DNA of 49,987 nt from Paludibacteraceae bacterium (GTDB lineage Bacteria > Bacteroidota > Bacteroidia > Bacteroidales > Paludibacteraceae), in the NCBI GenBank assembly GCA_024399575.1, contig JAKSNT010000004.1, positions 1-49,987 on the forward strand, written 5' to 3'. Positions 4,206 through 49,658 of the stretch are shown here, one piece after another (the stretch's first letter is position 1; each line of letters begins with the position of its first letter). The position numbers and the translations under genes are program-made. Below the pieces are notes generated by a model that was not told the DNA's origin, ran no database searches, and saw nothing but the letters and a program-made list of their open reading frames with translations.

Positions 4206-5147
4206 ATGATGAATTTGATGGTTATTTTGGGTCCGACTGCTACAGGAAAAACTGCTGTGGCGACGCGTGTGGCAGTCAGACTTGGAGGTGAGATACTGAG
4301 TGGTGATTCCAGGCAGATATATTGCGGCATGGATATCGGTACTGGCAAGGATTTGAATGAGTATGTTGTTGACGGAGAGAAGGTTCCGTATCATCTGATA
4401 GATATTGCGCCTGCTGGTTTCAAATACAATCTGTACATGTACCAGCGTGATTTCAATATCGCTTACCGAGATATAATGTCACGTGGCAAATTGCCTGTAT
4501 TGTGTGGTGGAACAGGACTATACATTGAGGCGGTTCTTGGTGGCTACCAGTTGCTCGAAGTGCCTCAGAACCCTGAACTCCGTGAGCGTCTCGAATGTAA
4601 AAGTCGTGAGGAACTTGAACGTATATTGCTATCATATAAGGATTATAAGCCTCACAACGTGACGGATTTCTGCAACACCAGACGTGCGATACGTGCAATC
4701 GAGATAGCTGACTATTATGCTAACAATGACATCAAGGGCATAGATGTCCCAGAAATTGACCCTTTGATTTTTGGCATTGACATTTCGCGAGAGCTGCGTA
4801 GGGAGCGAATTACGGCGAGATTGAAAGCGCGTTTGGACGAGGGCATGGTTGACGAGATTCGTGGGCTGATTGATTCCGGTGTCGATCCTGACGATCTGGT
4901 CTATTATGGATTGGAATATAAATACGTCACGAAGTATGTTATTGGGGAACTGAATTTCGACGAAATGCAGCGCCTTTTGGAGATTTCTATCCATCAATTC
5001 GCCAAACGGCAGATGACCTGGTTCCGTGGAATGGAGCGAAGAGGGTATAATATCGAGTGGATTGATGGGACTTTGCAGTTGGAAGAACGTGTAAATCAGG
5101 TGATAGAAATTTTTTTGAAAAAAAATATGAAAACATTTGGTGGGTAA
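4206..5147 (+). CDS. miaA: tRNA dimethylallyltransferase MiaA
   Basis: MiaA transfers a dimethylallyl group from DMAPP to N6 of A37 in tRNAs that read codons starting with U. The P-loop GPTATGKT is at residues 9-16, followed by GDSRQIYCGMDIGTGK (usually DSMQVY) with the catalytic Asp at 34. LCGGTGLY and the tRNA-binding C-terminal segment FAKRQMTWFRG are also present. The length of 313 is normal. Bacteroidota often carry two MiaA-like proteins; this copy has the GKDLNEY and YHLIDIAPAGFKYNLY features of one of those forms. Two ATG codons stand in tandem at the start, and either could be used. The promoter of the following tRNA lies over the 3' end of this gene. Confidence 0.93.
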   Translation: MMNLMVILGPTATGKTAVATRVAVRLGGEILSGDSRQIYCGMDIGTGKDLNEYVVDGEKVPYHLIDIAPAGFKYNLYMYQRDFNIAYRDIMSRGKLPVLCGGTGLYIEAVLGGYQLLEVPQNPELRERLECKSREELERILLSYKDYKPHNVTDFCNTRRAIRAIEIADYYANNDIKGIDVPEIDPLIFGIDISRELRRERITARLKARLDEGMVDEIRGLIDSGVDPDDLVYYGLEYKYVTKYVIGELNFDEMQRLLEISIHQFAKRQMTWFRGMERRGYNIEWIDGTLQLEERVNQVIEIFLKKNMKTFGG

Positions 5148-7888: not shown

Positions 7889-9139
7889 ATGGAATATTCT
7901 GAGGCTATACAAATGCTTTATAAACAGGCACCTATGTTTTCGCATGTCGGTAAGTCTGGTTATAAGGAGGGTTTGGAGAACACAATATGTATTGACACAT
8001 ATTACCATCGTCCCCACGAAAATTATCCTACAATCCACGTTGCGGGAACTAATGGGAAGGGTAGTACGTCACATTTGATTGCTTCTGTGTTGCAATCTGC
8101 TGGCTTGAAAGTGGGTTTATATACCTCGCCTCACCTTGTCGATTTTGCTGAAAGGATAAGGGTGAATGGCAAGAATATTGACCATGGATATGTGGCAAAA
8201 TTCATTGACGATGCTCAGGAACTGATTCTGAAGGTTCAACCTTCTTTTTTTGAAATTACGACTTCTTTGGCTTTTTGCTATTTCCGCGACATGAACGTGG
8301 ATGTGGCTGTGGTCGAAGTGGGATTAGGGGGACGGTTGGATTGTACGAATGTCATTAACCCGTTAGTGAGCGTGATAACTAATATCAGTCTGGAACATAC
8401 TGATTTGCTTGGTGATACGGTCGAGAAGATAGCATACCAGAAAGCTGGGATAATTAAGGCGGGTGTGCCTGTCGTTGTTGGTGAACGCGACGAATTCACT
8501 TTTCCTGTCTTCAGTCGTGAGGCTGAAAGGGTTGGAGCTGATATTATTGAGTATTGGACTGGCGAAGTGCCTGAAAGCGAGTTGTCGGGCGACCATCAGC
8601 GGCTCAATGAACGTACTGCATACATGGCCTTGAAAACTGTCAGCTCACGTTTTGGCATTACTGATGAAAATATCAGGGATGGCTTCAGTCATGTAGTTGC
8701 GCTGACTGGATTGATGGGTAGATGGCAGAGCTTCAGTGTCTTGACAGCTAATGGTCGTGGGCAGAGGGTGATTTGCGATGTCGGACATAATGCTGCATGT
8801 CTAAGGGTGGATGTTGCACAGTTGAGTCATGAATCTTACCGAACGCTCAGGGTGGTTTTCGGTGTGGTTGCTGACAAGGATTACAATGCTATGGTGAAAG
8901 TGATGCCTCGTGATGGAATTTACTATTTTGTCCAGGCTGCCATTCCACGGGCTCTTGATGGTCTGACGCTTTGCCGTGCTGGCAATGAGGTTGGATTGCA
9001 TGGCGATTTTTGCGGAAGTGTCCGTGAAGGGTTGGAGAGTGCACTTGCCGATTCCGTCGAAGGCGATTTGATCTTGGTCTGTGGCTCTAATTTTGTCGTT
9101 TCTGAAATAATTGAATGTATCTCTGGTGAGGTTGTATAA
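7889..9139 (+). CDS. folC: Folylpolyglutamate / dihydrofolate synthase
   Basis: FolC adds glutamate to dihydropteroate and to folates, an ATP-dependent step that makes and retains cellular folate. The Mur-ligase-type P-loop GTNGKGSTSH lies near residue 48, followed by GLYTSPHLVDFAERIRVNG, the EVGLGGRLDCTNV motif and GDHQRLNERTA in the central domain, with DVGHNAACL in the C-terminal domain. The 416 residues are typical. ATG 7889 (MEYSEAI) is preferred over 7820 because the upstream stretch contains the promoter. folA lies elsewhere in the window (45952-46428). The next gene overlaps its 3' end. Confidence 0.93.
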   Translation: MEYSEAIQMLYKQAPMFSHVGKSGYKEGLENTICIDTYYHRPHENYPTIHVAGTNGKGSTSHLIASVLQSAGLKVGLYTSPHLVDFAERIRVNGKNIDHGYVAKFIDDAQELILKVQPSFFEITTSLAFCYFRDMNVDVAVVEVGLGGRLDCTNVINPLVSVITNISLEHTDLLGDTVEKIAYQKAGIIKAGVPVVVGERDEFTFPVFSREAERVGADIIEYWTGEVPESELSGDHQRLNERTAYMALKTVSSRFGITDENIRDGFSHVVALTGLMGRWQSFSVLTANGRGQRVICDVGHNAACLRVDVAQLSHESYRTLRVVFGVVADKDYNAMVKVMPRDGIYYFVQAAIPRALDGLTLCRAGNEVGLHGDFCGSVREGLESALADSVEGDLILVCGSNFVVSEIIECISGEVV

Positions 9140-9596
9140 GGTCATATTGTTGTTTTCCCTGAGCGTTTGCTGCCTGAATCTTTTTGGAATTGACAGGAAT
9201 GTGCGTCGTGTCAATTTCAGTGAGAGGCGTGGACTTCACTTTGCTAAGGGTACATCGTATAAGGTGGTTGATGGTTACGAGTGGGGAGAACAAGAAATGA
9301 ATAGGATGTATTTTTACGGAAGCGCATTTGCTTTCAGGGAATATAGATATGCGATGCCGTCTAAGGCGGATGTCAATATTGCTGCGATTTCGATGGACAT
9401 TCCGTGTATTGCCTTTCGTGGCGAGCAGCAGGTATCTGATTTTGAGGTGATAGATGAGAATCGCTCCGGAATCAGGAGTCGAACTTTCGTCACTCCCGAG
9501 CAGCAGTCGGATGGTGCTCCGGTTGGCGAGCCGTTGGTGACATTGTTGGTGATGCTCGGTATTTTAGTGATTGTTAAAATGAGGAATCATGATTGA
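9126..9596 (+). CDS. Small secreted, C-terminally anchored protein of unknown function
   Basis: I do not recognise a family. There is no in-frame ATG near the start: GTG 9126 (VRLYKVILLFSLSVCC) or TTG 9111 are the options, both overlapping the folC end. The N-terminus is a signal peptide. The middle (about 100 residues) is polar with Arg/Tyr-rich stretches. The C-terminus is Pro-Val-Gly-Glu-Pro, then one hydrophobic helix (LVTLLVMLGILVIV) and a short basic end, KMRNHD. It overlaps ruvA by 8 bp, and so sits in a tight folC - this gene - ruvA - sprA unit. A protein at 34360-34989 has the same layout. Position next to sprA may hint at an envelope or secretion role, but that is inference. Confidence 0.65.
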   Translation: MRLYKVILLFSLSVCCLNLFGIDRNVRRVNFSERRGLHFAKGTSYKVVDGYEWGEQEMNRMYFYGSAFAFREYRYAMPSKADVNIAAISMDIPCIAFRGEQQVSDFEVIDENRSGIRSRTFVTPEQQSDGAPVGEPLVTLLVMLGILVIVKMRNHD

Positions 9597-10187: not shown

Positions 10188-13100
10188 GTGAAAGGGTATT
10201 TGCGTTTTTTATATTGTATGTTGGGGGTAAGCATCTGCCTTTTGGTAGGTGTGGCTGCTTCTGCACAGTTCTCTGAGGGCAGAACCGATTATTCGATGGC
10301 GTTTATTGATGGAGCCGACCCTGTGGCTGACGATGAGGAGACTGGTTTCGAGCGTGATACGTTGGCTCCCCCAATGGGAGTCCATCGTGTTCAGAGCGTA
10401 TCGAAGGAAAATACGGATGATTTGAACGAAAAGTATCCTATCGACCTCAAGACTCCTGGTAATATCAGCAATTCATTTGATTATGACCCTGTTACTGGAG
10501 AATATCTGTTCCGTAGCAATGTCGGCGAGATGGAGATTACTTCGCCGTTGCGCTTGACTCCGAAGGAGTATAATAAATATACGCTCAACCAGAGTATGAA
10601 TAGTTACTGGAAGCAGAAGAATGCTGAAGCGGTTGAGAATTACGAGGATAAGTTCAATATCACTGATATGAAGTTCTCGCTCGGACCTGCCGAGAAGGTA
10701 TTTGGACCTGGCGGTGTCAATATAAAGATGCAGGGGTCGGCAGAGTTGATTTTCGGTATCAAATATAATAATGTGCAGAACTATACTCTTTCCGAGAGGT
10801 TGCGGAAGACGACGGTGTTCAATTTTGATGAGAATATCCAACTCAATGTGAATGCAACTGTCGGTGAGCGTATTAAGTTCGGTATGAACTATAATACTCA
10901 GGCATCTTTTGCACAGGACCAGACGCAGTTGAAACTGGCATACGAGGGCAAGGACGATGATATCATCAAGGCAATAGAGGTTGGTAATGTCAGCCTGCCG
11001 CTGAATACTACGCTCATCACCGGTAGCCAGGCTTTGTTTGGAATGAGAGCTGCCTTGCAGTTCGGCAAATTGAAGATAGATGCAATAGTCGCTCAACAAC
11101 AGGCTCAACAGCAGCAGGTCAATTCGCAAGGTGGTTCGCAACTGATGGATTTTGAGGTAGATGTCGATAACTACGACGAGAATCGTCACTATTTCCTTTC
11201 TCACTATTTTCGCGACCATTTCGAGCAGAGTTTGGCATCGTTGCCATATATATCATCAGGTGTAACCATCACGAGATGTGAGGTTTGGATTACCAACAAG
11301 CGAAACAATTACGAGCAGACGCGAAATATTGTGGCTTTCATGGATATTGGCGAGCATGATGTGGTGGGAAATACACATTGGCAGCCTGGCGTGGTCGTCA
11401 CTCCTGACAATACTGCAAACACACTTTACGATGAGGTGAAGATGAAGGATATCCGTAATGTCCAGACTGTTAATGCAACACTTGATGCCGATCTGGGTGC
11501 TTATGGCATCGTTGGTGGTCAGGACTACGAGAAGATTGAGAGTGCACGCAAGCTGAATGAATCGGAATATACGCTCAATACGCAGTTGGGATTCATATCG
11601 CTAAAACAGCAGCTCAACCAGGATGAGGTTCTGGCAGTGGCGTACGAATATACTTACGGCGGCAAGACCTATCAAGTCGGTGAACTTTCGACTGATGGTG
11701 TTGACGCTCCAAATACATTGATTGTCAAGTTGCTCAAGGGTACTGCAACCAGTGTTTCCACTCCGCTTTGGAAACTGATGATGAAGAATATCTATTACCT
11801 CGGTGGCAACAATGTCCAGGCTGAGAAGTTCAAACTCAATATACAGTACAAGAACGATTCGAGTGGTGTATATGTGAATTATATTCCAGAAGGTGCATGT
11901 GCCAACCAGTTGCTTATTAAGGTTATGGGTCTTGATAAACTCGATAAGCGCAACGAGGCGAACCCTGATGGAAAGTTCGATTTTGTTGAAGGAACGACTA
12001 TATATACCTCTAACGGTCGTATCATTTTCCCCTCGCCCGAGCCTTTCGGTTCATATCTCCGCAAGATGATAGGCAATGATGCAATAGCCGATAAATATTG
12101 TTTTCAGGAACTTTACGATTCGACGCTCGTTGTGGCTCAGGAACATTCCGAGCGCAATAAATTCCGTATTTCGGGTGAGTATCAGGCTACATCTGGCAGT
12201 GTCATTCCGTTGCAGGCGATGAATGTTCCTCGTGGGTCTGTGAAGGTAACCGCTGGAGGACAAGTGCTTACTGAGAATGTTGATTATACGGTCGATTACG
12301 CTATGGGTACCGTGACCATCCTCAATCAGTCGATTCTGGCATCTGGCAATAATATAAATGTGCAGTTGGAAAATCAGCAGACTTTCAATCTTCAGCGTCG
12401 TACACTTGTCGGTACTCATCTTGAATATGAGATTTTCAAGAACTTCTCGGTTGGTGGTACTCTGATGCACTTGACCGAAATGCCGCTTGTTACCAAAACT
12501 CAGGTTGGTTCCGAGCCTATAGCCAACACTATCTGGGGCTTAAATGCTGCCTATAGTTCTGATGCTCCATGGTTGACGAAGGCTGTGAATGCCATCCCAG
12601 GCATCAATGCTACTGCACCTTCATCGCTGACTTTCAATGCTGAAGTTGCTCAGCTCATTCCTGGTCACCGTAAGGTTGACGGCAATCCTGGATATGCTTA
12701 TCTTGATGATTTCGAGAGCACTGAGACCACTATCGACCTTCGATATCCTTATTACTGGCATCTGTGTTCTACGCCAGTCGACCCTGACGAAGGTGCAATG
12801 TTCCCTGAGGCTACCATGACCAACAATGTCGAATATGGCAAAAATCGTGCATTGTTCAATTTCTATGTTATTGACAATACTGTATTTAACCGCGACAATT
12901 CGCAGACGCCTGACCATCTTCGTCGCAACAAGTCTCAACTTTCCAACCATCTGACCCGTGAGGTCATCGAGCAGGAGCTTTTCCCTAATCGTGAGGCTAT
13001 TCTTGGTCAGTCTTCGACAATGTCGGTGCTCAACCTGAGTTTCTATCCTTCAGAGCGTGGACCATACAATCTCGATACGAATGTCTATTTTGATGATGCC

Positions 13101-16100
13101 TCCGGCAAAATGAAACTCAAGGACCCTAAGAACCGTTGGGGAGGTATGTTCCGCAAACTTGAGACATCTGATTTTGAGTCTGCAAACATCGAGTATCTTG
13201 AGTTCTGGATGATGGATCCATTTGTATATGACACTCTTGGTGCAAATCCAGGTGGCGATCTTTATTTCAATCTTGGCGATGTCAGCGAGGATATCCTCCG
13301 TGACGGAAAGAAATTCTTCGAGAACGGAATGCCGACTACAGGAGACACTATCTTGACTGACTGTACCGTCTGGGGTCGTGTTCCACGTTTGCAATCTACC
13401 GTCTTGGCTTTTGATGGGTCGCTCGAATCACGCAAATATCAGGATGTCGGTTTCAACGGTTTGAACTCTGAGGATGAAAAGACATTTCCAGCCTATCGCG
13501 ATTATCTCGTTGCGTTACGCAATACTCTTCCTGCTCAGGCTGTCTCAAAGATGGAATCTGACCCTTTCTCGCCGTTCAACGACCCTGGGGGTGATGACTA
13601 TCATCACTATCGTGGAACGGATTATGATGGTGCTGAACTTGGGATCCTAGAACGTTATAAGCGGTTCAACAACCCAGAGGGCAACTCGCCTGCTTCTGAC
13701 AATACTGTTGAATCTTATTCCACTTCGGCTACCACGGTGCCTGATGCTGAGGATATTAATCAGGACAACACCTTGAACGAATACGAGAAATATTATCAAT
13801 ACAAGGTCTCAATCCGAAAGAACGACATGCAGGTGGGAAGCAACTATATTGTAAATAAAGTGGTGACTACTACCGAAATGGCTGATGGTAGCGAGAGCAG
13901 TGTGACTTGGTATCAGTTCAAGATACCTGTCCGTGAATATGCTAAGCGTGTCGGTTCAATTCGCGATTTCCGGAGCATTCGTTTCATGCGTATCTTCATG
14001 ACGAATTTCGAGCAGGAAATGCACCTGCGTTTCGGAACTCTCGAGCTCGTACGTGGCGAGTGGCGAAAATATAATAAACCGCTCTATACAACACAGGAAC
14101 CACCACTTGTCGAGGCCTCTATGGATGTTTCGTCTGTTAATATTGAGGAGCACGACAACAAGGAGCCTGTCAACTATGTCCTTCCTCCGAATGTGACGAG
14201 GGTGACCGACCCGAGCCAGCCTCAGTTGACTCAGCAGAACGAACAGTCTATGCTGATAAAGATCATGAATCTCTCGCCTGACGATTCGCGTGCGGTATAT
14301 AAGAATCTCCGTTACGACATGCGTAAATACAAACGCTTGCAGATGTTTGCCCATGCCGAGAAAATTAAGGATGACCTGACAGACCTGCAGGATTACGAGT
14401 GCTCAATTTTTCTCCGTATCGGTTCTGACCATACCGAAAACTACTATGAATACGAGATTCCGTTGAAAATCACACCTGAAGGGCATTATAGCAAATGGAG
14501 CAACGAGGTTTGGCCTGAAGGCAATATGTTCGACTTCTCGCTGGACTTGCTGACTGATGTCAAGAACCACAGGAATAACAGCATACGCCAGACGCACGGA
14601 TCGATGGCGCGCCCTTATTCCGAGTACGACCCTGACCATACGCAGAACAAGGTTACCATTGTCGGAAATCCTAACCTTGGAGAAATCAAGACGATGTTGA
14701 TTGGTGTACGCAACCATGGCAAGGAGGTTCGCAATATTGAGGTCTGGGTGAATGAACTACGTCTGACCGAATATGATGAGAAACCGTCCTGGGCTGCTCT
14801 TGGTAATATAGGATTGAACTTTTCTGATGTCGGATCGTTCAATGTCTCTGCACGTTACGAGCAGGCTGGCTTTGGAGGCATTGAGCAGAGTCTCGCTTCG
14901 CGTCGTCTTGATGACCTCACGCAGGTCAATCTTTCGCTCCAGTGGGATTTCGGACGTTTCTTACCTGACAAGGCGAATGTCCGCATCCCTGCTTATTACA
15001 GTTACGGCTATGAGTCCCGTCTCCCTGAATACAATCCGATGGATGAGGACGTTCCGTTGCGTAAGTCGCTTGAATCATTGGAAACCAAGCAGCAGCGCGA
15101 TTCGCTCCGTAACCTCTCAGTGGAAAAGAATATATCGCACAGTTTCAATGTTACCAACATGAAGGTTGACCTTCGTGGAAAGACTCCTCGAATCTGGGAT
15201 CCTGCCAACTTCTCGATTTCTTACTCCTATACCAATATTCAGGATCTTGACCCTGAGACTGCTCGCGACTTCACTATTACCCATAATGCTCAGTTCAATT
15301 ATAATTTCTCGACTACTCCTAAGCCATGGGAGCCTTTCAAGGGCAAGAAGAATCTTGACAAATGGAAGATACTGACCGAATGGGGAATGAACTACGAACC
15401 ATCACTTCTGGCATTCAATGTGAATTTGGCACGTACCTATTCCGAGACACAGCTCCGCGACCTTACTGGTGCCATGCAGGTCGATTTCAGCGACCCTCGC
15501 AACTCGCTGCTCTCGTTCTCGAAAGATTTCACCTGGACCCGTAATTTCCAGTTGAACTACAATCTTACGAAAAATATCAAGTTCACGCTTACTACACAGA
15601 CCAATTCGCGCTTCGACGAGACAAAGTATTCGCCTGTGAATCGTGAGTTCTTCCCGAGCGAATACGAACTTTGGAAGGACACTATCAAGCAGAGTATTGC
15701 TGCTGGTGGTCGTCCGTTGGCTTACCAGCAGTCGTTTACTGCATCGTGGGATATACCTATTAACAAGATACCTGGGCTTGACTGGATTACTGCCCGTGCA
15801 CAGTATTCTGCTAATTACAACTGGAGTACGGCTGTCGTCTATGACGGACAGAACTCAATGGGTAACACCGTTTCGAATATGGCGCAATGGCAGGGTGATG
15901 GAGCAATGAATTTCGAGACATTATATAACAAGTCGAAATATGTGCAGGAACTCAATCGCCGGTTGCAGCAGCGGTCGGGTCAGGGTGGTCGTCGTCAGCA
16001 GAAATTCAACCCTCGCACTTTCGTCAAGACCGTGATTGTTACCGACACTGCAGATGTCGTTCTCAACCATAAACTGAACAGCGACAAGTTCGAGATACAG

Positions 16101-17672
16101 TTTGCTGACAAGAAAGGCAAACCGTTGAATGTGAAATATAAAATCAAGGATAAGAACAATATAGTAATCAAGAAACTCAAGAAGGACACTGAGGTCAAGG
16201 TTACGATAACAACCAAGAATCCTAATGAGGAATCGCCTGCCGAACTTGCTGGATTATATACAGTCAGGGCTTTGATGATGGTTCGTAAGCTTCAGATTTC
16301 GTATAAAGGTTCGAGTAGCGTCTCGATGCCTGGTTTTGCCTCTGGTGGCAGGTTCTTTGGTCAGTCTGTAATGAATGGTAAACTTGAGCCTGGTCTTGAT
16401 TTCGCCTTCGGAGTTCCTGGAGAGAAGTATCTTGAGCGTGCCTTGAGCAATGGCTGGATTGTGATGAACGACTCGATTGTCAATCCTTCGGCGGTCAACA
16501 AGTCGTCTGATTTCGATGGAAAGCTTTCGTTGGAGCCAGTGCCTGGTTTCAAGATTGAGCTGCAATCCAAGCGTGCGATGACACAGATGATTTCCGTTCA
16601 GGCGCAGTTCGCCGATGCTCCGACCACATACAGTGGCACTTTCCGTATGACGACCTGTATGCTGGCGTCTGCTTTCTGGAGCACGGGCAAGGCTGCCAAC
16701 AACTATAGTAGCCGTGCTTTTAATGATTTCCTTGCAAATCGTGATGTAATAGCAGCACGCGTTCAGGAGAAATACACCAATACAGTCTATCCAGTTTCCG
16801 GTTTCATGCGTGATTCGCGTGTGGCTGGATTGCCTTACAATCCTGACAATGGTCAGGTTAACCGCAATTCAGCGGATGTCCTCATACCAGCATTTCTTGC
16901 TGCCTATTCTGGTAAAGACCCTAACCGTCAGTCGCTTGACCTCTTCCCTGGTTTCCTCGCCATGCTCCCTAACTGGAAAATAACCTATGACGGTCTTGGC
17001 AAGCTTAAGGCGATGCAGAAGGTGTTCCGCAGTTTTTCGATTACTCATGCTTATCAATGTGTCTATAATGTAGGCTCTTATACTTCGTATTCCAATTATG
17101 TGGATGCTGGTGATGGACGTGGTTTCGTCAAGGATGTCACTACTGGCAACCCTATTCCTTCATCGCCTTACAATATCACTTCGGTCAATGTCACCGAGAG
17201 TCTCAACCCTCTGATTGGTGTTGACATGGCATTGAAGAACTCGCTTCTCTGCAAGGTGGAATACAAGCGCCAGCGAACCTTGACCTTGAATATCTCGTCC
17301 AACCAGTTGATGGAGGCTAAGAACAACGAGTGGGTTGTCGGTCTCGGCTATGTGCTGAAGGATTTTGACATCATGTTGAAACTCAAGAACAACCGTTTGA
17401 AGAAAGTGAAGAACGACCTCACGCTACGCTGCGACTTCTCGCTGAAGGACATCTCTACCTTGCTACGCAAGATGGATTCGGTTGACGATACTCAGGCGAC
17501 AAATGGCAACAAGACAATAGGTGTAAAGTTCTCAGCCGAATATGTCTTCTCGTCGATGCTTTCGTTCAAACTCTTCTGCGACTACCAGACCAACAAGCCG
17601 TACATCTCGACCTCCTATCCTATCGAGACCTGTGATGTTGGTCTTTCGGTCAAGTTCATGCTTACACGATAA
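10188..17672 (+). CDS. sprA: T9SS outer-membrane translocon SprA/Sov
   Basis: SprA (Sov in Porphyromonas) is the giant outer-membrane barrel through which type IX secretion cargo crosses to the cell surface. The 2494 residues agree with known members (about 2400-2500). There is a signal peptide (ICLLVGVAASAQFSEG), and nearly the whole protein is Asn/Tyr/aromatic-rich beta strand, for example TLSERLRKTTVFNFDENIQLN, LRYPYYWHLCSTPVDPD and a final strand ending VGLSVKFMLTR. The start is GTG 10188, or ATG 10218 within the signal peptide. It appears intact with no frameshift. It lies between ruvA and clpP. Its presence predicts porK/L/M/N-type genes elsewhere in the genome; none are in this window. 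Confidence 0.95.
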   Translation: MKGYLRFLYCMLGVSICLLVGVAASAQFSEGRTDYSMAFIDGADPVADDEETGFERDTLAPPMGVHRVQSVSKENTDDLNEKYPIDLKTPGNISNSFDYDPVTGEYLFRSNVGEMEITSPLRLTPKEYNKYTLNQSMNSYWKQKNAEAVENYEDKFNITDMKFSLGPAEKVFGPGGVNIKMQGSAELIFGIKYNNVQNYTLSERLRKTTVFNFDENIQLNVNATVGERIKFGMNYNTQASFAQDQTQLKLAYEGKDDDIIKAIEVGNVSLPLNTTLITGSQALFGMRAALQFGKLKIDAIVAQQQAQQQQVNSQGGSQLMDFEVDVDNYDENRHYFLSHYFRDHFEQSLASLPYISSGVTITRCEVWITNKRNNYEQTRNIVAFMDIGEHDVVGNTHWQPGVVVTPDNTANTLYDEVKMKDIRNVQTVNATLDADLGAYGIVGGQDYEKIESARKLNESEYTLNTQLGFISLKQQLNQDEVLAVAYEYTYGGKTYQVGELSTDGVDAPNTLIVKLLKGTATSVSTPLWKLMMKNIYYLGGNNVQAEKFKLNIQYKNDSSGVYVNYIPEGACANQLLIKVMGLDKLDKRNEANPDGKFDFVEGTTIYTSNGRIIFPSPEPFGSYLRKMIGNDAIADKYCFQELYDSTLVVAQEHSERNKFRISGEYQATSGSVIPLQAMNVPRGSVKVTAGGQVLTENVDYTVDYAMGTVTILNQSILASGNNINVQLENQQTFNLQRRTLVGTHLEYEIFKNFSVGGTLMHLTEMPLVTKTQVGSEPIANTIWGLNAAYSSDAPWLTKAVNAIPGINATAPSSLTFNAEVAQLIPGHRKVDGNPGYAYLDDFESTETTIDLRYPYYWHLCSTPVDPDEGAMFPEATMTNNVEYGKNRALFNFYVIDNTVFNRDNSQTPDHLRRNKSQLSNHLTREVIEQELFPNREAILGQSSTMSVLNLSFYPSERGPYNLDTNVYFDDASGKMKLKDPKNRWGGMFRKLETSDFESANIEYLEFWMMDPFVYDTLGANPGGDLYFNLGDVSEDILRDGKKFFENGMPTTGDTILTDCTVWGRVPRLQSTVLAFDGSLESRKYQDVGFNGLNSEDEKTFPAYRDYLVALRNTLPAQAVSKMESDPFSPFNDPGGDDYHHYRGTDYDGAELGILERYKRFNNPEGNSPASDNTVESYSTSATTVPDAEDINQDNTLNEYEKYYQYKVSIRKNDMQVGSNYIVNKVVTTTEMADGSESSVTWYQFKIPVREYAKRVGSIRDFRSIRFMRIFMTNFEQEMHLRFGTLELVRGEWRKYNKPLYTTQEPPLVEASMDVSSVNIEEHDNKEPVNYVLPPNVTRVTDPSQPQLTQQNEQSMLIKIMNLSPDDSRAVYKNLRYDMRKYKRLQMFAHAEKIKDDLTDLQDYECSIFLRIGSDHTENYYEYEIPLKITPEGHYSKWSNEVWPEGNMFDFSLDLLTDVKNHRNNSIRQTHGSMARPYSEYDPDHTQNKVTIVGNPNLGEIKTMLIGVRNHGKEVRNIEVWVNELRLTEYDEKPSWAALGNIGLNFSDVGSFNVSARYEQAGFGGIEQSLASRRLDDLTQVNLSLQWDFGRFLPDKANVRIPAYYSYGYESRLPEYNPMDEDVPLRKSLESLETKQQRDSLRNLSVEKNISHSFNVTNMKVDLRGKTPRIWDPANFSISYSYTNIQDLDPETARDFTITHNAQFNYNFSTTPKPWEPFKGKKNLDKWKILTEWGMNYEPSLLAFNVNLARTYSETQLRDLTGAMQVDFSDPRNSLLSFSKDFTWTRNFQLNYNLTKNIKFTLTTQTNSRFDETKYSPVNREFFPSEYELWKDTIKQSIAAGGRPLAYQQSFTASWDIPINKIPGLDWITARAQYSANYNWSTAVVYDGQNSMGNTVSNMAQWQGDGAMNFETLYNKSKYVQELNRRLQQRSGQGGRRQQKFNPRTFVKTVIVTDTADVVLNHKLNSDKFEIQFADKKGKPLNVKYKIKDKNNIVIKKLKKDTEVKVTITTKNPNEESPAELAGLYTVRALMMVRKLQISYKGSSSVSMPGFASGGRFFGQSVMNGKLEPGLDFAFGVPGEKYLERALSNGWIVMNDSIVNPSAVNKSSDFDGKLSLEPVPGFKIELQSKRAMTQMISVQAQFADAPTTYSGTFRMTTCMLASAFWSTGKAANNYSSRAFNDFLANRDVIAARVQEKYTNTVYPVSGFMRDSRVAGLPYNPDNGQVNRNSADVLIPAFLAAYSGKDPNRQSLDLFPGFLAMLPNWKITYDGLGKLKAMQKVFRSFSITHAYQCVYNVGSYTSYSNYVDAGDGRGFVKDVTTGNPIPSSPYNITSVNVTESLNPLIGVDMALKNSLLCKVEYKRQRTLTLNISSNQLMEAKNNEWVVGLGYVLKDFDIMLKLKNNRLKKVKNDLTLRCDFSLKDISTLLRKMDSVDDTQATNGNKTIGVKFSAEYVFSSMLSFKLFCDYQTNKPYISTSYPIETCDVGLSVKFMLTR

Positions 17673-22735: not shown

Positions 22736-22767
22736 TTTGGCAGAATGATTTATTTGTCGTAACTTTG
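22736..22767 (+). promoter_or_regulatory. Promoter of the purB-purA-guaB-guaA operon
   Basis: TTTG-N20-TAACTTTG, an exact Bacteroidota consensus, about 70 bp before purB. It is a native-type promoter in front of genes that look foreign. Confidence 0.85.
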
Positions 22768-22836: not shown

Positions 22837-24135
22837 ATGATAGAGAGATATAGCAGAAAGGTGATGAGGGACGTTTGGACGGAGGAGAACAAGTTCAACG
22901 CCTATCTGAAGGTAGAATTGTATGCTGCCGAGGCTTGGAGCAAGCTCGGGGTGGTTCCTGAAGAGGACATTAAGAAACTTTGGCGCGATGCAAAGTTCTC
23001 GGTGCCACGCATATACGAGATAGAACAGCAGACTAAGCACGATGTTGTGGCTTTTACGAGGACTGTCAGCGAGTCGCTCGGAGAGGAACGCAAATGGGTG
23101 CATTATGGACTGACATCTACAGACGTTGTTGATACTGCCAACGGTTATCTCGTCAAGCAGGCTAACGCCATTCTCCGTCAGGACCTCCAGGATTTCGTGG
23201 CTGTGCTGAAGAGACGCGCCATCGAGTTCAAGGAACAACCATGCATAGGCAGGACCCACGGCATACATGCCGACATCACCTGCTTTGGACTGAAATGGGT
23301 GCTTTGGTATCAGGAGATGATGCGCAACATCGAGCGTTTCGAGGCTGCGTGCAGGAATATCGAGGTTGGCAAGATGAGCGGTGCAGTGGGCAACTTCGCC
23401 AATATACCGCCTTTTGTCGAGGAATACGTTTGCCAGCAGCTTGGCATAGACCATGCCCTCGTTTCAACACAGGTAATACAACGCGACCGTCACGCTTACT
23501 ATATGGCGACACTGGCTGTCATAGCCTCATCGCTCGAACAGATGGCAATGGAGGTCCGCAACCTGCAGCGCACTGAGGTGCACGAGGTGGAGGAGGCTTT
23601 CGGCAAGGGGCAGAAGGGCAGTTCGGCAATGCCGCACAAGCGCAACCCTATATCGTCGGAGAACATCTGCGGATGCGCAAGGGTGATGAGAGGGTATATG
23701 ACTGCTTTCTACGAGAACGTGGCTCTCTGGCACGAACGCGACATCTCGCATTCGTCAACCGAGCGTATCATACTGCCAGATGCGACAATGCTTCTGGACT
23801 ACATGCTGAACCGCTTTAAGGGGATACTCGACAACCTCGTGATATTCAAGGACCAGATGATAGCCAACATCTACCGCACGAAGAAGATAATCTTCGCCCA
23901 GCGTGTGATGAACGCATTGATAGCAAAGGGTTTCGTGCGTGAGGAGGCTTACGACACAGTGCAGCCTATTGCCATGAAGGCATGGACCGAAGGGCTCGAC
24001 TACCAGGAATTGCTCGAACAGAACGAAAAGGTGATGAGCTACCTGACGAAGGAGGAACTGGCAGGTTGTTTCACGCTGGAATACTATTTCTCGCAGGTCG
24101 ATATGATATACAAAAGATGCGGAATAATTGATTAA
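22837..24135 (+). CDS. purB: Adenylosuccinate lyase, Bacillus-type
   Basis: PurB cleaves SAICAR to AICAR and adenylosuccinate to AMP, releasing fumarate. The fumarate-lyase signature [11 protein letters not shown] is at residues 261-271, the RTHGIHA segment carries a catalytic His, and [10 protein letters not shown] is conserved. At 432 residues with the start [14 protein letters not shown], it is the short Bacillus/Clostridium form; the Bacteroidota enzyme I know is longer, E. coli-like and begins with an LxAISPVDGRY segment. ATA is frequent among its Ile codons. First gene of the operon; purA follows after 21 bp. Confidence 0.95.
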
Positions 24136-24156
24136 CTATAAAAACAGGACAAAACT

Positions 24157-25440
24157 ATGAATAATACTCTCGTAGTATGCGGAATACAGTGGGGCGATGA
24201 GGGGAAAGGCAAGATGACCGACTACCTGGCACAGGCAGCGGATGTTGTGGTGCGCTATCAGGGCGGCAACAATGCCGGACACACAATCACCTTCGGCGGC
24301 AACAAATACGCATTGCAGTCGATACCTTCAGGGATTTTCAACCCCCATATAAAGAACGTAATGGCTAACGGCATGGTGGTCAACCCAAAAGCCGCCATAG
24401 GCGAACTCGACAAACTGAGAGAACGCGGGATACGTGATTTCCAGCTCTACATCTCGGACCGTGTTGCAGTGATAATGCCTTACCACCTCGCTCTCGACGG
24501 AGCATACGAGGCACTGAAAGGCGGGAAGCAGATAGGCACGACCAAGAAGGGCATAGGACCTGCATATTCCGACAAATATAGCCGTGTGGGTATCCGCATG
24601 GGCGACCTCCTTGACAAGGAGTACTTCGCAGAACGTCTGCGTGACGCACTGCTGCAGAAGAACATGGAACTGAAGATGCTCGGACTGGAGCAGTTCGACT
24701 TCGATACCTTATATAATGAATATCTTGGCTATGGAGAGACGCTTCGCCCATACATCACTGACACCTCCATCCTGCTGAACCACGAGATAGAGGCAGGACA
24801 CAAAGTGCTGTTCGAAGGGGCGCAGGGAGTGATGCTCTGCATTGACAACGGGACTTACCCTTTTGTGACTTCGTCATCGCCAACGGCAGCATCCGTGCCA
24901 TTAGGAGCAGGAATAGCGCCACGGTTTATAGACAATGTGTTGGGCATCTGCAAGTCATATACCACTCGCGTGGGGGCTGGGCCATTCCCAACCGAGCTTT
25001 TTACCGAGCAGGCTGATTATATCCGCGACCGCGGACATGAGTACGGGACAGTTACCGGCAGACCAAGGAGAGTGGGCTTTCTTGATTGCGTGGTGTTGCG
25101 TCACGCATGTCGTGTGTCGGGTGTGAACTACTTGAGCCTCATGTTGTTCGATGTGCTGTCTGGAGTGAAGGATCTCCGGATATGTGTGGGCTACAAGCTC
25201 GACGGCAAGGTGATAGACTACATTCCGTCATGCCTTTCGGCACTCGAAAGATGCGAGCCTGTCTATGAGGTCATGGAGACGTGGGAGGAGGATCTCACTG
25301 GCATGAAAACGTATGAGGAACTGCCTGAAGCAGCGAAGAAATACATCAGACGTGTCGAGGAACTCACTCACACAGAGGTGGCATTCGTAAGCGTAGGTCC
25401 AGACAGGACACAGACTATAATAAGGAAAGAGATTTTTTAA
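24157..25440 (+). CDS. purA: Adenylosuccinate synthetase, Firmicutes-type
   Basis: PurA makes adenylosuccinate from IMP and aspartate with GTP, the first committed step to AMP. The GTP-binding loop GDEGKGK is at residues 13-19, with GGNNAGHT and its catalytic His shortly after, and GTTKKGIGPAY and FEGAQGVML further on. The 427 residues match the Bacillus/Clostridium length. The usual Bacteroidota PurA begins MKVDVLLGLQWGDEGKGKVVD; this one differs throughout the N-terminal third. Codon use is ATA-rich and GC-rich compared with flanking genes. It sits between purB (21 bp) and guaB (12 bp), placing both AMP-branch enzymes side by side. Confidence 0.95.
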   Translation: MNNTLVVCGIQWGDEGKGKMTDYLAQAADVVVRYQGGNNAGHTITFGGNKYALQSIPSGIFNPHIKNVMANGMVVNPKAAIGELDKLRERGIRDFQLYISDRVAVIMPYHLALDGAYEALKGGKQIGTTKKGIGPAYSDKYSRVGIRMGDLLDKEYFAERLRDALLQKNMELKMLGLEQFDFDTLYNEYLGYGETLRPYITDTSILLNHEIEAGHKVLFEGAQGVMLCIDNGTYPFVTSSSPTAASVPLGAGIAPRFIDNVLGICKSYTTRVGAGPFPTELFTEQADYIRDRGHEYGTVTGRPRRVGFLDCVVLRHACRVSGVNYLSLMLFDVLSGVKDLRICVGYKLDGKVIDYIPSCLSALERCEPVYEVMETWEEDLTGMKTYEELPEAAKKYIRRVEELTHTEVAFVSVGPDRTQTIIRKEIF

Positions 25441-26916
<1,476 letters not shown>

Positions 26917-26925
26917 GCAACGGAC

Positions 26926-28449
26926 ATGATACTTGTATTGGATTTTGGAAGTCAGTATAACCAACTCATAGCCCGCAGGATACGCGAGATGGGGGTCTAT
27001 TCGGAACTGAAACCACATGAAATGACCGCCGAGGAGATAAGACGGAGAGGCGATGTGGAGGGAATAGTGTTCAGCGGAGGGCCAAAGAGCATATACGCCG
27101 AGGACGCATACCATTGCGACCCCGAGATATTCAACCTCGGACTGCCTATACTCGGGATATGCTACGGCATGCAGCTGACGACCCAGCATTTCGGCGGAAA
27201 GATAGAGAAAGGCGCGACCAAGGAATACGGACGTATGCCTATAAACATTGATGGCAACTGCCCTCTGTTCGACGGACTGCCCGAAAGGCAGAACGTCTGG
27301 ATGTCGCATGGCGACTATGTGGCACGTGTGGCTGAGGGATTCCAGGTGGCAGCAAAGAGCGACAACGACATCTGCGCCTCGGCATGGGACGAGAAACGGG
27401 GACTCTATCTCGTTCAGTTTCACCCTGAAGTGCGTGGGTCGGAATTCGGCAACGACATAATCAGCAACTTTGTGTTCAAGGTGTGTCATGCGGAGAAGAG
27501 ATGGTCGATGGAGAACTACATCGACATGCAGGTGGAGAAGATACGCGCCCAGGTGGGCAACCGCAAAGTGCTCTGCGGACTGTCGGGAGGTGTTGATTCG
27601 ACAGTGGTTGCAGTGTTGATACATAAGGCTATAGGCGACCAGCTGACTTGTATGTTCATCGACCATGGAATGCTTCGTAAGAACGAGGGCGACCAGGTGA
27701 TGGACATGTGCAAAGGTCTTTTCGGCATAAACGTGGTCAGGATAGACGCCAAGGAGAGGTTCCTTGGCAAACTGGCAGGAGTGACCGAACCTGAACGCAA
27801 ACGCAAGATAATAGGCAACGAGTTCGTATATTGCTTCGACGAGGAGTGCCGGAAGCTCGGCGAGTTTGACTTCCTCGCTCAAGGTACGTTATATACCGAT
27901 GTCATCGAGTCGGGTACCAAGACGGCACAGACCATCAAGTCGCACCACAACGTCGGTGGACTGCCTAAGGATATGAAGTTCAAACTCGTTGAACCATTGA
28001 ACGTGCTTTTCAAAGACGAAGTGCGCGTGCTCGGCGAGAAACTCGGAATACCGTCGCACATAGTATGGCGACAGCCATTCCCCGGACCGGGACTGGCAAT
28101 CAGGGTGATAGGCGACATCACGGAGAAGAAACTCGAGATAGTCCGCGAGAGCGATGCAATACTCCGTGAGGAGATAGCCAAGGCAGGGCTCGACAGGGAG
28201 ATATGGCAGTACTTCACAGTGCTCACCAACCTGCAGAGCGTGGGAGTCATGGGCGACGAGAGAACTTACGACTATGCCCTCGGAATACGTGCCGTGACCT
28301 CAATAGACGGAATGACAGCCGATTGGGCGAGAATACCATACGACGTGCTCGAAATAGTGTCGCGACGGATAGTCAACGAGGTGAAAGGTGTCAACAGGAT
28401 AGTATATGACATAACCTCAAAACCGCCTGCTACGATAGAATGGGAATAA
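26926..28449 (+). CDS. guaA: GMP synthase (glutamine-hydrolysing)
   Basis: GuaA aminates XMP to GMP using glutamine and ATP. The class I glutaminase domain (1-190) has the nucleophile Cys79 in GICYGMQ and the catalytic HPE near residue 166. The ATP pyrophosphatase domain has SGGVDST at 220-226, and the C-terminal dimerisation domain ends [18 protein letters not shown]. Length 507 is the single-chain bacterial form. The sequence resembles Bacillus/Clostridium GuaA; the Bacteroidota form I know has a different glutaminase half. Codon use is ATA-rich. Last of the four purine genes. No terminator separates it from the lipoprotein gene 54 bp on. Confidence 0.96.
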
Positions 28450-36300: not shown

Positions 36301-36553
36301 GTAAGGAGTCCTGAAGGGACTCAACAAATCAGCCTAGGGCAGCGCCCTAGGACAGAATGTTTATGTATGTGTTTACGCTGCAACGCAGCAAGACAAATGC
36401 CATATATTTGTTATGCCGCGTTGCGGCGTAATTTGTGTTGTTTGCATACCTAGGGCGACGTGCTCCGCACTCTGCCATAGGCTAATATGTCTAGTGCTTT
36501 CAGCCCATAGAATGTCAAGGGCTATTGGGTAAACCCAACCTCGTCAATCGAGG
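36301..36553. repeat. Cluster of short palindromes in the MATE leader
   Basis: The 452-bp gap 36257-36708 contains at least seven perfect hairpins. These are GAGTCC/GGACTC (36306-36322), CCTAGGGC/GCCCTAGG (36333-36351), GCTGC/GCAGC (36377-36389), ACAAAT/ATTTGT (36393-36411), GCCGC/GCGGC (36415-36427), TTGGGT/ACCCAA (36525-36538) and CCTCG/CGAGG (36539-36553). A second, degenerate CCTAGGGC is near 36450. No ORF of note. It resembles composite intergenic repeats seen in Bacteroidales genomes, and lies between the MATE gene and its promoter. Confidence 0.7.
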
Positions 36554-45955: not shown

Positions 45956-46428
45956 CTTCGTTCGTAGGTGACATAGCGATATCCCAATCCACACTCTCTT
46001 TCGAATGGTGATTCATCAATCACTTTCCATATATTCATGTCAATCGCCGGAAAGAATCTGTCAGCACTTTCAGCTTCAATGTCAACGTGTGTCACGATGA
46101 GTCGGTCGGCATGTCCAATCGTCTGGCTGTAAATCTGTTCTCCACCAATGACGAAAACGTCTTCGTTATTAACCATTCTGATTGCCTCGTCCACCGATTT
46201 CGCCACTTCCATGCCTTCGACGGCGGTCATGGATTTCGAAATCACAATATTCCTGCGTCCTTTCAATGGTTTGAAAGGCAGCGACTCCCATGTGTTTCGC
46301 CCCATCATCACAGTGTGTCCCATGGTGATGGACTTGAATCTTTTCAAGTCTGCCGAAATATGCCATGGAATGTCGTTATTCCGTCCTATGGCGTTATTTC
46401 TGTCAATTGCTACAATTATCGAAATCAT
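45952..46428 (-). CDS. folA: Dihydrofolate reductase
   Basis: FolA reduces dihydrofolate to tetrahydrofolate with NADPH. The active-site segment AIGRNNDIPWHISADLKRFKSIT has the conserved Trp and the catalytic acidic position, followed by MMGRNTWESLP and the NADPH-contacting VIGGEQIYSQ. Length 158 is typical. The start overlaps the stop of the large LRR protein gene by 4 bp (ATGA), and its own stop overlaps the next start by 4 bp. thyA, a common partner, is not in the window. Confidence 0.96.
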   Translation of the reverse strand: MISIIVAIDRNNAIGRNNDIPWHISADLKRFKSITMGHTVMMGRNTWESLPFKPLKGRRNIVISKSMTAVEGMEVAKSVDEAIRMVNNEDVFVIGGEQIYSQTIGHADRLIVTHVDIEAESADRFFPAIDMNIWKVIDESPFERECGLGYRYVTYERR

Positions 46429-49400
46429 TTCTCGTATTCGTATTTGATTTCGTATGTCGGTGCGAAACTCTCACCGGTATTCTTGAATCCTTTCCAGTAT
46501 TCGTGCTTCAGATATTCAGATACGAGACCAGGACCGCATTTCAATTCGGAATTTGCCTTGACATTTTTGTCGAAGATAGCACCTGGACAGGTAGGCATTG
46601 ATGGCGATGGCACGATGAACATTCTGAGACCTGTGCAGTTGAAGAATGCCTCCTTGCCAATGTAGTTCACTGATGCAGGCAACACCACTTCTCTTATTTT
46701 CGAGCAGAATTTGAATGCTCCGTCGTCAATTGTTGTCGTCCCTTCTTCCACTGCAAGTTTTTCCACTGCCCTGCCAGGAGGACATACTATGACTCTCGAC
46801 ATGTCTTTTGTGTAGAGTATTCCGTTCTTGACTATGAAATCGTCATTGTCCTTCTTGCAAGTGACATTCGACAGGTTGCGACATGCACCTATTGCACCTA
46901 CTCCTATCTCCTTCATGAAACTATGTACTGTAAATTTGTTGATGCCAGTGTTGAAAAGGGCATAATCGCCTATAATGTCAATATATTCAGAGATTCGGAT
47001 ATTGCGGAGATTCTCGCAATTTTCGAACGCATGGGCACCAATCTGCTTGCACTTGCTCTTCTCGCCGATTGATGCGCGAGCCAACGCTTTGAGATCCTTG
47101 CAGAGATATGGCGGAATGGCTGTCACCTTGTCGTCGAAGGCGAATCCCGCCAATGCTGTGCAGCCCTCGAAGGCGCTGTGCACTTCGCCATTGATTGTCC
47201 CACTTGCCACTTCGCATTGAACGGCATTGAAATATACGTTGGCAAGTGCAGTGCAATTTGCGAATGCCAAGGCTCCTATTCCTGTCACGTTTGCTGGTAT
47301 CTCTATGAGTTTCACCATGCTGCATCCGTAGAACAATCCTTCTGGTATGAACTTGACTTTTTTGCCGAAGTTGACATCGTTTATCTTGTTTTTCCCACCG
47401 AATGGATAGATTGTTGAGTCAGTTGCGAGGCTGAATGCTGCAACGCAGTTCTCGGCATTGAAATTTACCGTGATGAGGTTCTCGCAGTCCGAGAATGCAC
47501 CGCCTCCTATGGCTGTAATGCCTTCAGGAATGGTGAGCTCGTTCAGTCCATTGACGTGTGCGAACGACATTGCACCAATCTTTTTTAGCGATTTCCCCCA
47601 CTTTATCTCGTTTGTCATCGTACATCCGTAGAATGCGAAATCAGGAATCTGCTCGACCTTTGGCCCGATGGTTATCCTTGTGGCAGGCGTGTTCATGAAA
47701 GCCGCTATCGTGACTCCTTTCTCTACCGTCTTCATGTTGATGCAGTTGGTTGCGTTGAACGTGATGTCCATCATCGATGAGCAACCTTCAAATGCTCCTC
47801 CTCCAATGTTCCTGACGTTCTCAGGAATTGTTATTTTCTTCAGACCTGTGCATCCCTGGAAAGCGTATTTGCCTATCACTTCTGTGTTTGCAGGTATGGT
47901 GATGTTTGCCAAACGGTTACAACCGGCGAATGCGTAATTCGGAATCTCCTTCACGTCTGGTCCGAGATTTACGCCTGTGAGCGCTTCGTTGCTGAATATT
48001 GAGCGTTTCGCATTTGGGTCTGAGAAGATTTCGCATCTCTCTGCGTTATAATCTATGGTGTTCAGTCCAGAACATCCATCGAAAATGTGTTTGCCTATCT
48101 GCTTGACGCTCTTAGGTATGTTGATTTTTGTCAGTCCGGAGCATCCTGCAAACATATATTCTGGCAATATCTCGACTTCATTGCCTATCGTGACAGTCTT
48201 GATTGAGCCACAGTTCTGAAATGCAGAATAGGTGATGTTCTTCTCGACTTTTGTGACACCGGTGCAGCGTCTTGCGTTGAAATTCAGAGTCGCAAGATTG
48301 TCGCAACCTGCGAAAGCCAGACCGCCTATTGATGTCACGTTTTCAGGTATTGTCACTGAAGGAAGTGACGAGCAGTTATAGAATGCTTTTGTTCCAATCT
48401 GTTTTACTTCGTCTGGGATCTGTATGTTTTTCAGTGACTTGCAGTTTGAGAAGGCGTTGTCTGGAATGATTTTCACTTCCTTGCCGAAAACTACTGTCGT
48501 GAGTGACGAATTCTCGAAGGCGGGAATTGGCACATTGTTGTTGTAGGTTGTTGCATTGACGCAGTTTATTGCATTGAAATAGATTGTCGTGAGGTTGCTG
48601 CAACCACCGAAGGCGCGTCCCCCGATTGAAGTTACTGTCTCAGGAATAGTCACCTGACTGATTGACGAGCAGTTCAGAAATGCACATTCGCCTATGGTCT
48701 CAGTCGATGGCGAGAGTACGAGGTCGGTGATGCCACTGCAACCGTAGAACAGGTAGTTTGGAATGTTGTGAACCTTCTGACCGAAATTCACGGTCGTGAT
48801 GGCTGGATTGTTGAAAGCTGTGATAACCTGCTGTCCCTGTGCTTTATATGCATTGTTGCACTCAGTTGCATTGAAATTCACTGTCGTCAGACTCGGACAG
48901 TCGTAGAAGGCTGCTGCTCCTATTGATGTCACCTGTTCTGGTATCGTAATCTGGGTCAGTGTGTTGCACCCTTTGAAGGCGTAGTCGGGAATTGATGTCA
49001 CGTATGGACCAAACACCACGTTGGTTATTGGCGATCCCATGAATGCCGCTCCTGCCTTCGAGCCGAGAGTCTTGCAATCGCGTGCATCAAATTTGATGAC
49101 CGACAGACTTTTGCAGTCACAAAAAGCGCGTCCGCCTATTGATGTGACATATTCGGGAATGGTAAGCTCTGTGATTCCCGTGCAGCCCCAGAATATGTAT
49201 TCAGGGATTGAAACGACATCTCCGCCGAGGTTCAGCATTGAAATGGAGATGCAGTCCTCAAATGCAGGCATGATTTTTTTACCTTGAGTTCCAGCTGCTG
49301 TCACACAGTTGGTTGCATTGTAATTTACTGTCGTCAGACCTACACAGCCTTTGAATGCGTGACCTCCTATTCTCGTGATGGTCTTGGGAATTGTTATCGT

Positions 49401-49658
49401 TGTGAGCGACTTGCAGGCATAGAATGCTTTGTCGGCTATCACTTTAACTGGGATCGTCTTCCCTTCGTAGGACACGTTTTCAGGGATGGCCACAACTCCT
49501 GTATATGGTACCCCCTCGGACGGCAACACCGTTGCGTATTCGTCTTTCAGATTGATGTCGTATGTGATTTCAACACCTTGACTGTTAGTGATTACCACTC
49601 CGGCGTATGTTGCTATTGCCGAGCATGTCATTAACGTTAAAAGTAAAAATTTCTTCAT
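46425..49658 (-). CDS. BspA-like leucine-rich-repeat surface protein
   Basis: This 1077-residue secreted protein has a signal peptide (FLLLTLMTCSAIATYA) and is built almost wholly of LRR_5/BspA-type repeats (IPxxVTSIGxxAFxxCxSLTTV). These sit in a higher-order unit of roughly 95-100 residues, repeated about nine times, each marked by an (N/Y)FNAxxC strand and an IPxYxFxGC strand. BspA-like proteins bind host matrix proteins and other bacteria. The C-terminus (ESFAPTYEIKYEYEK) shows no T9SS sorting domain or membrane anchor, so how it stays on the surface is unclear. It leads the long operon, with a promoter at 49730-49760, and is coupled to folA by a 4-bp overlap. Confidence 0.88.
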   Translation of the reverse strand: MKKFLLLTLMTCSAIATYAGVVITNSQGVEITYDINLKDEYATVLPSEGVPYTGVVAIPENVSYEGKTIPVKVIADKAFYACKSLTTITIPKTITRIGGHAFKGCVGLTTVNYNATNCVTAAGTQGKKIMPAFEDCISISMLNLGGDVVSIPEYIFWGCTGITELTIPEYVTSIGGRAFCDCKSLSVIKFDARDCKTLGSKAGAAFMGSPITNVVFGPYVTSIPDYAFKGCNTLTQITIPEQVTSIGAAAFYDCPSLTTVNFNATECNNAYKAQGQQVITAFNNPAITTVNFGQKVHNIPNYLFYGCSGITDLVLSPSTETIGECAFLNCSSISQVTIPETVTSIGGRAFGGCSNLTTIYFNAINCVNATTYNNNVPIPAFENSSLTTVVFGKEVKIIPDNAFSNCKSLKNIQIPDEVKQIGTKAFYNCSSLPSVTIPENVTSIGGLAFAGCDNLATLNFNARRCTGVTKVEKNITYSAFQNCGSIKTVTIGNEVEILPEYMFAGCSGLTKINIPKSVKQIGKHIFDGCSGLNTIDYNAERCEIFSDPNAKRSIFSNEALTGVNLGPDVKEIPNYAFAGCNRLANITIPANTEVIGKYAFQGCTGLKKITIPENVRNIGGGAFEGCSSMMDITFNATNCINMKTVEKGVTIAAFMNTPATRITIGPKVEQIPDFAFYGCTMTNEIKWGKSLKKIGAMSFAHVNGLNELTIPEGITAIGGGAFSDCENLITVNFNAENCVAAFSLATDSTIYPFGGKNKINDVNFGKKVKFIPEGLFYGCSMVKLIEIPANVTGIGALAFANCTALANVYFNAVQCEVASGTINGEVHSAFEGCTALAGFAFDDKVTAIPPYLCKDLKALARASIGEKSKCKQIGAHAFENCENLRNIRISEYIDIIGDYALFNTGINKFTVHSFMKEIGVGAIGACRNLSNVTCKKDNDDFIVKNGILYTKDMSRVIVCPPGRAVEKLAVEEGTTTIDDGAFKFCSKIREVVLPASVNYIGKEAFFNCTGLRMFIVPSPSMPTCPGAIFDKNVKANSELKCGPGLVSEYLKHEYWKGFKNTGESFAPTYEIKYEYEK

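Follow-up and report, generated by a model that had tools for sequence, protein, structure and literature searches.

The window, i.e. the whole stretch of 49,987 nucleotides analysed here (contig JAKSNT010000004.1 of genome G000, Paludibacteraceae), carries four purine genes, purB, purA, guaB and guaA, whose ORFs are all intact and lie on the plus strand. They form a single tight cluster with intergenic gaps of 21, 12 and 9 bp, as a sequence-only reading of the same DNA had claimed, and a promoter is predicted ahead of them. The features are as follows.

22736..22767, plus strand: predicted promoter of Bacteroidota type, TTTG-N20-TAACTTTG, starting 101 bp upstream of purB (pattern only)
22837..24135, plus strand: purB, adenylosuccinate lyase, 432 aa, Bacilli type (TIGR00928; 76% identity to Ca. 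Avacholeplasma; tree)
24157..25440, plus strand: purA, adenylosuccinate synthase, 427 aa, Bacilli type (NF002223; donor identity; tree; AU test)
25453..26916, plus strand: guaB, IMP dehydrogenase, 487 aa, Bacilli type (TIGR01302; donor identity; AU test)
26926..28449, plus strand: guaA, GMP synthase, 507 aa, Bacilli type (NF000848; donor identity; AU test)

Curated NCBIfam cut-offs were exceeded by PurB (530.5 bits against TIGR00928, cut-off 326.2), PurA (578.8 bits against NF002223, cut-off 402) and GuaB (619.6 bits against the IMP dehydrogenase model TIGR01302, cut-off 481.5). GuaA scored 796.1 bits against NF000848 (GMP synthase, glutamine-hydrolysing; cut-off 400); both of its halves are present, and TIGR00888 and TIGR00884 are over their cut-offs too. 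The starts of PurB and PurA agree with the earlier description, PurB being short and lacking the LxAISPVDGRY start.

The claimed host-type promoter upstream of purB is present, and its pattern is enriched in the window, where TTTG-N20-TAACTTTG occurs at 10 sites against 0.53 expected from shuffles. Within the 250 bp examined before purB, the strict form TTTG-N18-22-TANNTTTG was found in four of the 12 carriers of the cluster genes described below (G000, G002, G004 and G027) and a looser form in three, with none in the other five. Judged from this pattern, host control of the purine cluster appears well supported for the window and less so for the whole carrier clade. A single transcript started at the host-type promoter would then serve both exits from IMP, PurA and PurB leading to AMP and GuaB and GuaA to GMP, co-transcription and enzyme activity being predicted from sequence.

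A search of Rfam at the gathering score, covering the window and 18 other stretches, returned only tRNA and Acido-Lenti-1 matches, and a known regulatory RNA ahead of the operon was ruled out on this result. The Acido-Lenti-1 match in the window (RF01687) is at 36307-36351, before a MATE transporter gene.

The window also contains, at 10188-17672, the gene for SprA, which we take to be linked to type IX secretion and to mark a Bacteroidota chromosome; by this marker, the chromosome carrying the purine cluster is that of a member of the Bacteroidota. At 46425-49658 the window encodes a BspA-type leucine-rich repeat protein of 1077 aa.

Carrier genomes and the native genes

HMM searches for each protein family (PurA, PurB, GuaA and GuaB) covered 61 genomes, i.e. 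the window's own, 8 of its genus, 28 more of its family and 24 of its order. In 12 of the 37 family genomes, PurA, PurB, GuaA and GuaB all share a single type, with 69-93% identity to the window proteins (GuaB of G023 is cut by a contig end). Eight of these carriers, G000-G004 and G006-G008, belong to genus g1, and G019, G023, G024 and G027 represent four other genera. Because the carriers make up this share of the family and span five genera, the transfer argued for below appears to be old. PurB scored 525-538 bits in the 12 carriers and at most 412 bits in the remaining family genomes. Among the native-type relatives whose sequences were taken (for PurA, all but seven of the family genomes concerned), identity to the window proteins is 40-46% for PurA, about 50% for GuaA and about 60% for GuaB, and PurB is remote.

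It had been suggested that the cluster replaced the native genes, and native copies were indeed not found in G000, where the profile search gave one match each for PurA, PurB and GuaA and, for GuaB, a single match over the full length accompanied by weak ones to CBS domains; since this genome is a MAG and 86% complete, their absence from it is not absolute. No second true copy of any of the four genes was found in G000, G019 (100% complete) or G004 (99%), and the extra profile matches in these three genomes are weak lyase-family or CBS-domain matches.

In the HMM search, purA, purB, guaA and guaB are all absent from four of the 37 family genomes (G005, G016, G017 and G028; 80, 88, 97 and 100% complete, respectively), which likely depend on purine salvage. 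Loss of the genes thus happens in this family, and because of these genomes it is plausible that an auxotrophic ancestor, living on salvage, regained the genes from its gut neighbours, so that no genes in use were displaced. Against this order of events stands a PurC of subfamily NF009251 that lies beside a first PurC in a foreign-looking operon of G000, and which, if native, would indicate that old and new genes overlapped. We give loss followed by regain close to an even chance.

Phylogenetic placement and donor lineage

In order of PurA identity, a scan of named genomes yielded Alistipes sp. RGIG4198 (74%), Ca. Avacholeplasma faecigallinarum (64%) and, at no more than 56%, Streptococcus and various other bacteria, all among the best 80 of 581 confirmed loci; PurB identity is 76% to both Alistipes sp. 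RGIG4198 and Ca. Avacholeplasma faecigallinarum. The genus Ca. Avacholeplasma is incertae sedis in NCBI; its order, made up of Bacilli-like gut bacteria, is placed by the PurA tree alongside Thomasclavelia and further Bacilli. GuaA, GuaB and PurA were searched in 120 genomes drawn from this order. GuaA of 70-74% identity was found in 10 of them and GuaB of 70-77% in 19, while full-length identity of PurA was 70% at most; the top identities in the order are 76, 70, 77 and 74% for PurB, PurA, GuaB and GuaA, respectively. The sequence-only reading had described all four proteins as Bacillus/Clostridium-like forms. A Bacillota origin stands, but trees and identities place the nearest source in the Ca. 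Avacholeplasma order (the donor order in the following) and not in Bacillus or Clostridium themselves.

The proposal that all four genes were transferred from Bacillota into Bacteroidales agrees with the trees, in which every one of the four proteins falls inside the diversity of the donor order. In the PurA tree, the 12 family genomes form one clade (support 100/98), which is sister to a second Bacteroidales group (jointly 100/99), and both groups are nested among 20 donor-order rows, with enclosing forks supported at 99/98 and 99/93; grouping with native Bacteroidales PurA was rejected (p-AU 0.004). The 12 family GuaA sequences likewise form one clade inside the donor order (100/99), and grouping with the native Bacteroidales form was rejected (AU p 0.0026). 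Two kinds of GuaA exist in the donor order, and the family has the kind that lies close to Bacillus and Lactobacillales. GuaB is placed in the donor-order group and its grouping with the native form was also rejected (AU p 0.010), but the 11 family rows form one clade in 40% of bootstraps (support 14 in the other tree), and because the unity of family GuaB is so weakly supported this gene could have entered more than once. The 12 family PurB sequences group in a single clade (99/95) that falls within the donor order. Native Bacteroidales PurB sits on a very long branch, and the AU tests of native grouping covered PurA, GuaB and GuaA; a single Bacteroidales PurB clade, i.e. one gain, was not rejected (p-AU 0.108).

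The gene trees of the purine enzymes conflict with the organism's relatives, as is the case in xenologous displacement. We infer the direction of transfer from rooting with other bacteria and native Bacteroidales. A host-marker tree of a ClC-type channel (28 rows) has its 8 foreign-type genomes on one side of a branch, weakly (80/73).

Row sets differed among the trees. PurB of G031 was under the 60-bit entry limit and was dropped before tree building. The first PurB tree was computed without G074, G088, G091, G093 and G098, and the one with the 99/95 family clade without all PurB below 350 bits (native ones included) and without G082, G090, G095 and G099. The earlier PurA tree was computed without G080, G082, G090 and G141 and the AU-tested one without 21 genomes; the earlier GuaB tree without G023 (cut) and rows below 400 bits and the AU-tested one without nine genomes and the low scorers; and the AU-tested GuaA tree without seven genomes.

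Donor-type PurB was found in 7 of 393 genomes sampled across the order (few of them from this family), namely G000, three genomes of family f2 and three of family f113. All three f113 genomes have a purB-purA pair, and their PurA, together with that of Alistipes RGIG4198, is sister to the family PurA. In G037 of family f2 (L047-L050), PurB is the only one of the four that is donor-type, and it stands apart from the others; two more f2 genomes (L332 and L333) share this PurB type.

Such scarcity across the order argues against vertical inheritance, by which an old Bacteroidota form or paralogue would have been retained here and lost elsewhere. That reading would accommodate the presence of the genes in five genera and their G+C content, which is 0.41-0.59 in carriers (0.52 in G000) against 0.31-0.40 in donors. 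It is made very improbable by the AU tests, which reject native grouping of PurA, GuaB and GuaA, and by the position of the genes, which are nested inside one Bacilli-like order and not beside Bacillota.

Codon usage had been taken as further evidence of transfer. The isoleucine counts are correct (ATA for 8 of 8 in the first 80 codons of guaB, and for 1 of the first 6 in clpX), and the pattern is not widespread in the genome: the other long ORFs in G000 (482 with 300 aa or more) have a mean ATA fraction of 0.40 and a mean GC3 of 0.48, and purB, purA, guaB and guaA, which are high in both, are equalled or exceeded on both measures by 0, 1, 0 and 0 of them, respectively. As evidence of transfer, however, the ATA bias fails. 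The same genes in eight donor genomes are ATT-rich (ATA 0.02-0.29, GC3 0.14-0.32), and the bias arose later; it is absent from the sister species G002 and G004 (ATA 0.11-0.38), and other family carriers range from 0.00 to 0.66. A donor trace in the codon bias is therefore excluded. It is possible that later exchange within the genus lies behind the bias in G000, and this codon outlier does not bear on the old transfer.

Contamination and chimeric assembly of the contig have to be considered as well, G000 being a MAG (1.66 Mb, 75 contigs, 86% complete) in which the four genes jointly stand out by their codons. We regard the chance of either as negligible. The genes are found in 12 separate genomes of five genera, a serine dehydratase gene lies downstream of the cluster in G000, G002 and G004 alike, the G+C content of the G000 genes differs from that of the donors, and the stated contamination of the genome is 0.07%.

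Gene order and the wider purine pathway

The idea that the four-gene block moved as such is not borne out by the donors: the window order occurs in none of 16 donor-order loci, and donor purA is separate where it could be placed; in G159, G167 and G196 it shares a contig with the other genes at a distance of about 15-27 kb. In 7 of the 16 loci purB-guaB-guaA is contiguous (with purB cut by the contig end in one), and purH-purD-folD lies upstream in all five loci with upstream sequence, purM and purN being additionally seen there in G167. G062 has purC-F-M-N-H-D-folD-purB-guaA, without guaB. No single donor locus among those read has purC through guaB-guaA in one piece, which is a composite only.

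Among the carriers, the order purB-guaB-guaA-purA was found in G001, G003, G006, G007, G008 and G019, and G023 is consistent with it. The order purB-purA-guaB-guaA is shared by G000, G004 and, up to the contig end, G002, and the four genes are split between two loci in G024 and among three in G027. Because most carriers have purB-guaB-guaA-purA and donors have purB-guaB-guaA, the window order is most simply derived as a reshuffle within the genus, seen in three species. Acido-Lenti-1 repeats lie at 4435-4479, 8954-8999 and 9164-9209 in the G004 locus (L035), where one sits between guaB and guaA and the other two precede purB; the repeat between guaB and guaA is a possible candidate for the agent of rearrangement.

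The multi-locus layout of G024 and G027 also fits a stepwise gain, and instead of one transfer there may have been several gene-by-gene gains, clustered afterwards. Partial sets elsewhere would be expected from such a history, e.g. the lone donor-type PurB of G037, the purB-purA pair of f113, and the foreign PurA and PurB of Alistipes RGIG4198, which has native-type GuaA and GuaB; the dispersal of the G027 genes and the weak family clade of GuaB point the same way. The adjacency of purB and guaB is donor order, however, and is retained in 9 of the 12 carriers, the other three being the reshuffled subclade, and family GuaA, PurA and PurB are each one clade. Separate gains, later clustered, are in our view rather unlikely.

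Further purine genes of G000 are found on contig C39, as purE-purL-purC-purC-purF-purM-purN running to the contig end, and on contig C69, as purD-folD at the contig end; no purH turned up in the window or in a further 1.19 Mb of sequence that was read. The two purC genes on C39 (L372 10913-12593) are in tandem and differ, one product being 237 aa long and closest to the donor order among the loci compared (50%) and the other 324 aa long and of subfamily NF009251. By sequence comparison, PurM of G000 appears clearly foreign-type: it shares 80% identity with the Alistipes RGIG4198 protein, to which it is sister among donors (99/97), and 68-77% with donor proteins. Its top score against PDB chains is 454.6 bits, as opposed to 65 and 60.7 bits to 3mdo and 3kiz, presumably Bacteroidota PurM. 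PurF (65-66% to Alistipes RGIG4198 and to donors) and PurN, PurD and FolD (only 49-60% to donors) are likely of foreign origin, the comparison being with donors and Alistipes RGIG4198. Alistipes RGIG4198 itself has the order purC-F-M-N-H-D-folD-purB.

Very probably, then, the purine genes of the ancestor of the five carrier genera were acquired from, or near, the Ca. Avacholeplasma order, the native ones are gone, and the acquired ones were later reshuffled. This ancestor, within one gut Bacteroidales family, would have taken purB-guaB-guaA, the 3' end of a longer donor purine cluster, together with purA from an Avacholeplasma-order bacterium or close kin, and probably the upstream IMP-synthesis genes too, which may have moved jointly with the others. 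The native purA, purB, guaA and guaB would have disappeared, and in the window's subclade purA would have left the 3' end for a place between purB and guaB. The cross-phylum replacement of the IMP branch point is real and old, and purine synthesis was probably replaced to a greater extent than these four genes.

Significance and comparison with known systems

Purine synthesis is usually seen as core and vertically inherited, and here its IMP branch point has been swapped across phyla in the gut. The enzymes are ordinary and the kind of event is known; the replacement itself is notable. No published account of this transfer was found by title and opening lines among the papers listed in literature searches, which did not cover most subscription papers; PMC4945068 is a study of Firmicutes gut genomes and not about the present transfer.

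Parts of the donor set are present in families f1, f2 and f113 and in Alistipes RGIG4198, ranging from purB alone, through purB-purA, to most of the pathway. We tentatively suggest, with less than even confidence, that purine synthesis is lost time and again in gut Bacteroidales and restored with genes from a single Bacilli-like order, overlapping donor parts being present in at least three families. If this is true, the purine pathway would be an exchangeable trait of the community, and its donor lineage can be named. As different lineages hold different parts, the replacement of an essential pathway, and auxotrophy with salvage as a bridge to it, become testable. Caution is also advised in using purA, purB, guaA and guaB as phylogenetic markers or for contig sorting in Bacteroidales.

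The closest known systems are the purine clusters of the Ca. Avacholeplasma order, a Bacillota-type pur operon with the same enzymes, in which PurB, GuaB and GuaA are 69-77% identical to those of the window in the closest donors. Where these clusters have purB-guaB-guaA, the window has purA after purB, and its four genes are detached from the upstream pathway and preceded by a Bacteroidota-type promoter. The native PurA, PurB, GuaA and GuaB of Bacteroidales catalyse the same reactions, with a remote PurB of 447-459 aa, and their genes are far apart in the one-contig genomes G009 and G031; native-type neighbours are guaB-guaA in Alistipes RGIG4198 and guaB-purA in G021. Xenologous displacement of operons, in which a foreign set replaces the native orthologues, is a general phenomenon. 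The present case differs in that what crossed between phyla is a central branch point, probably along with further steps of the pathway, and in that relatives of the same genes are found in up to three Bacteroidales families.
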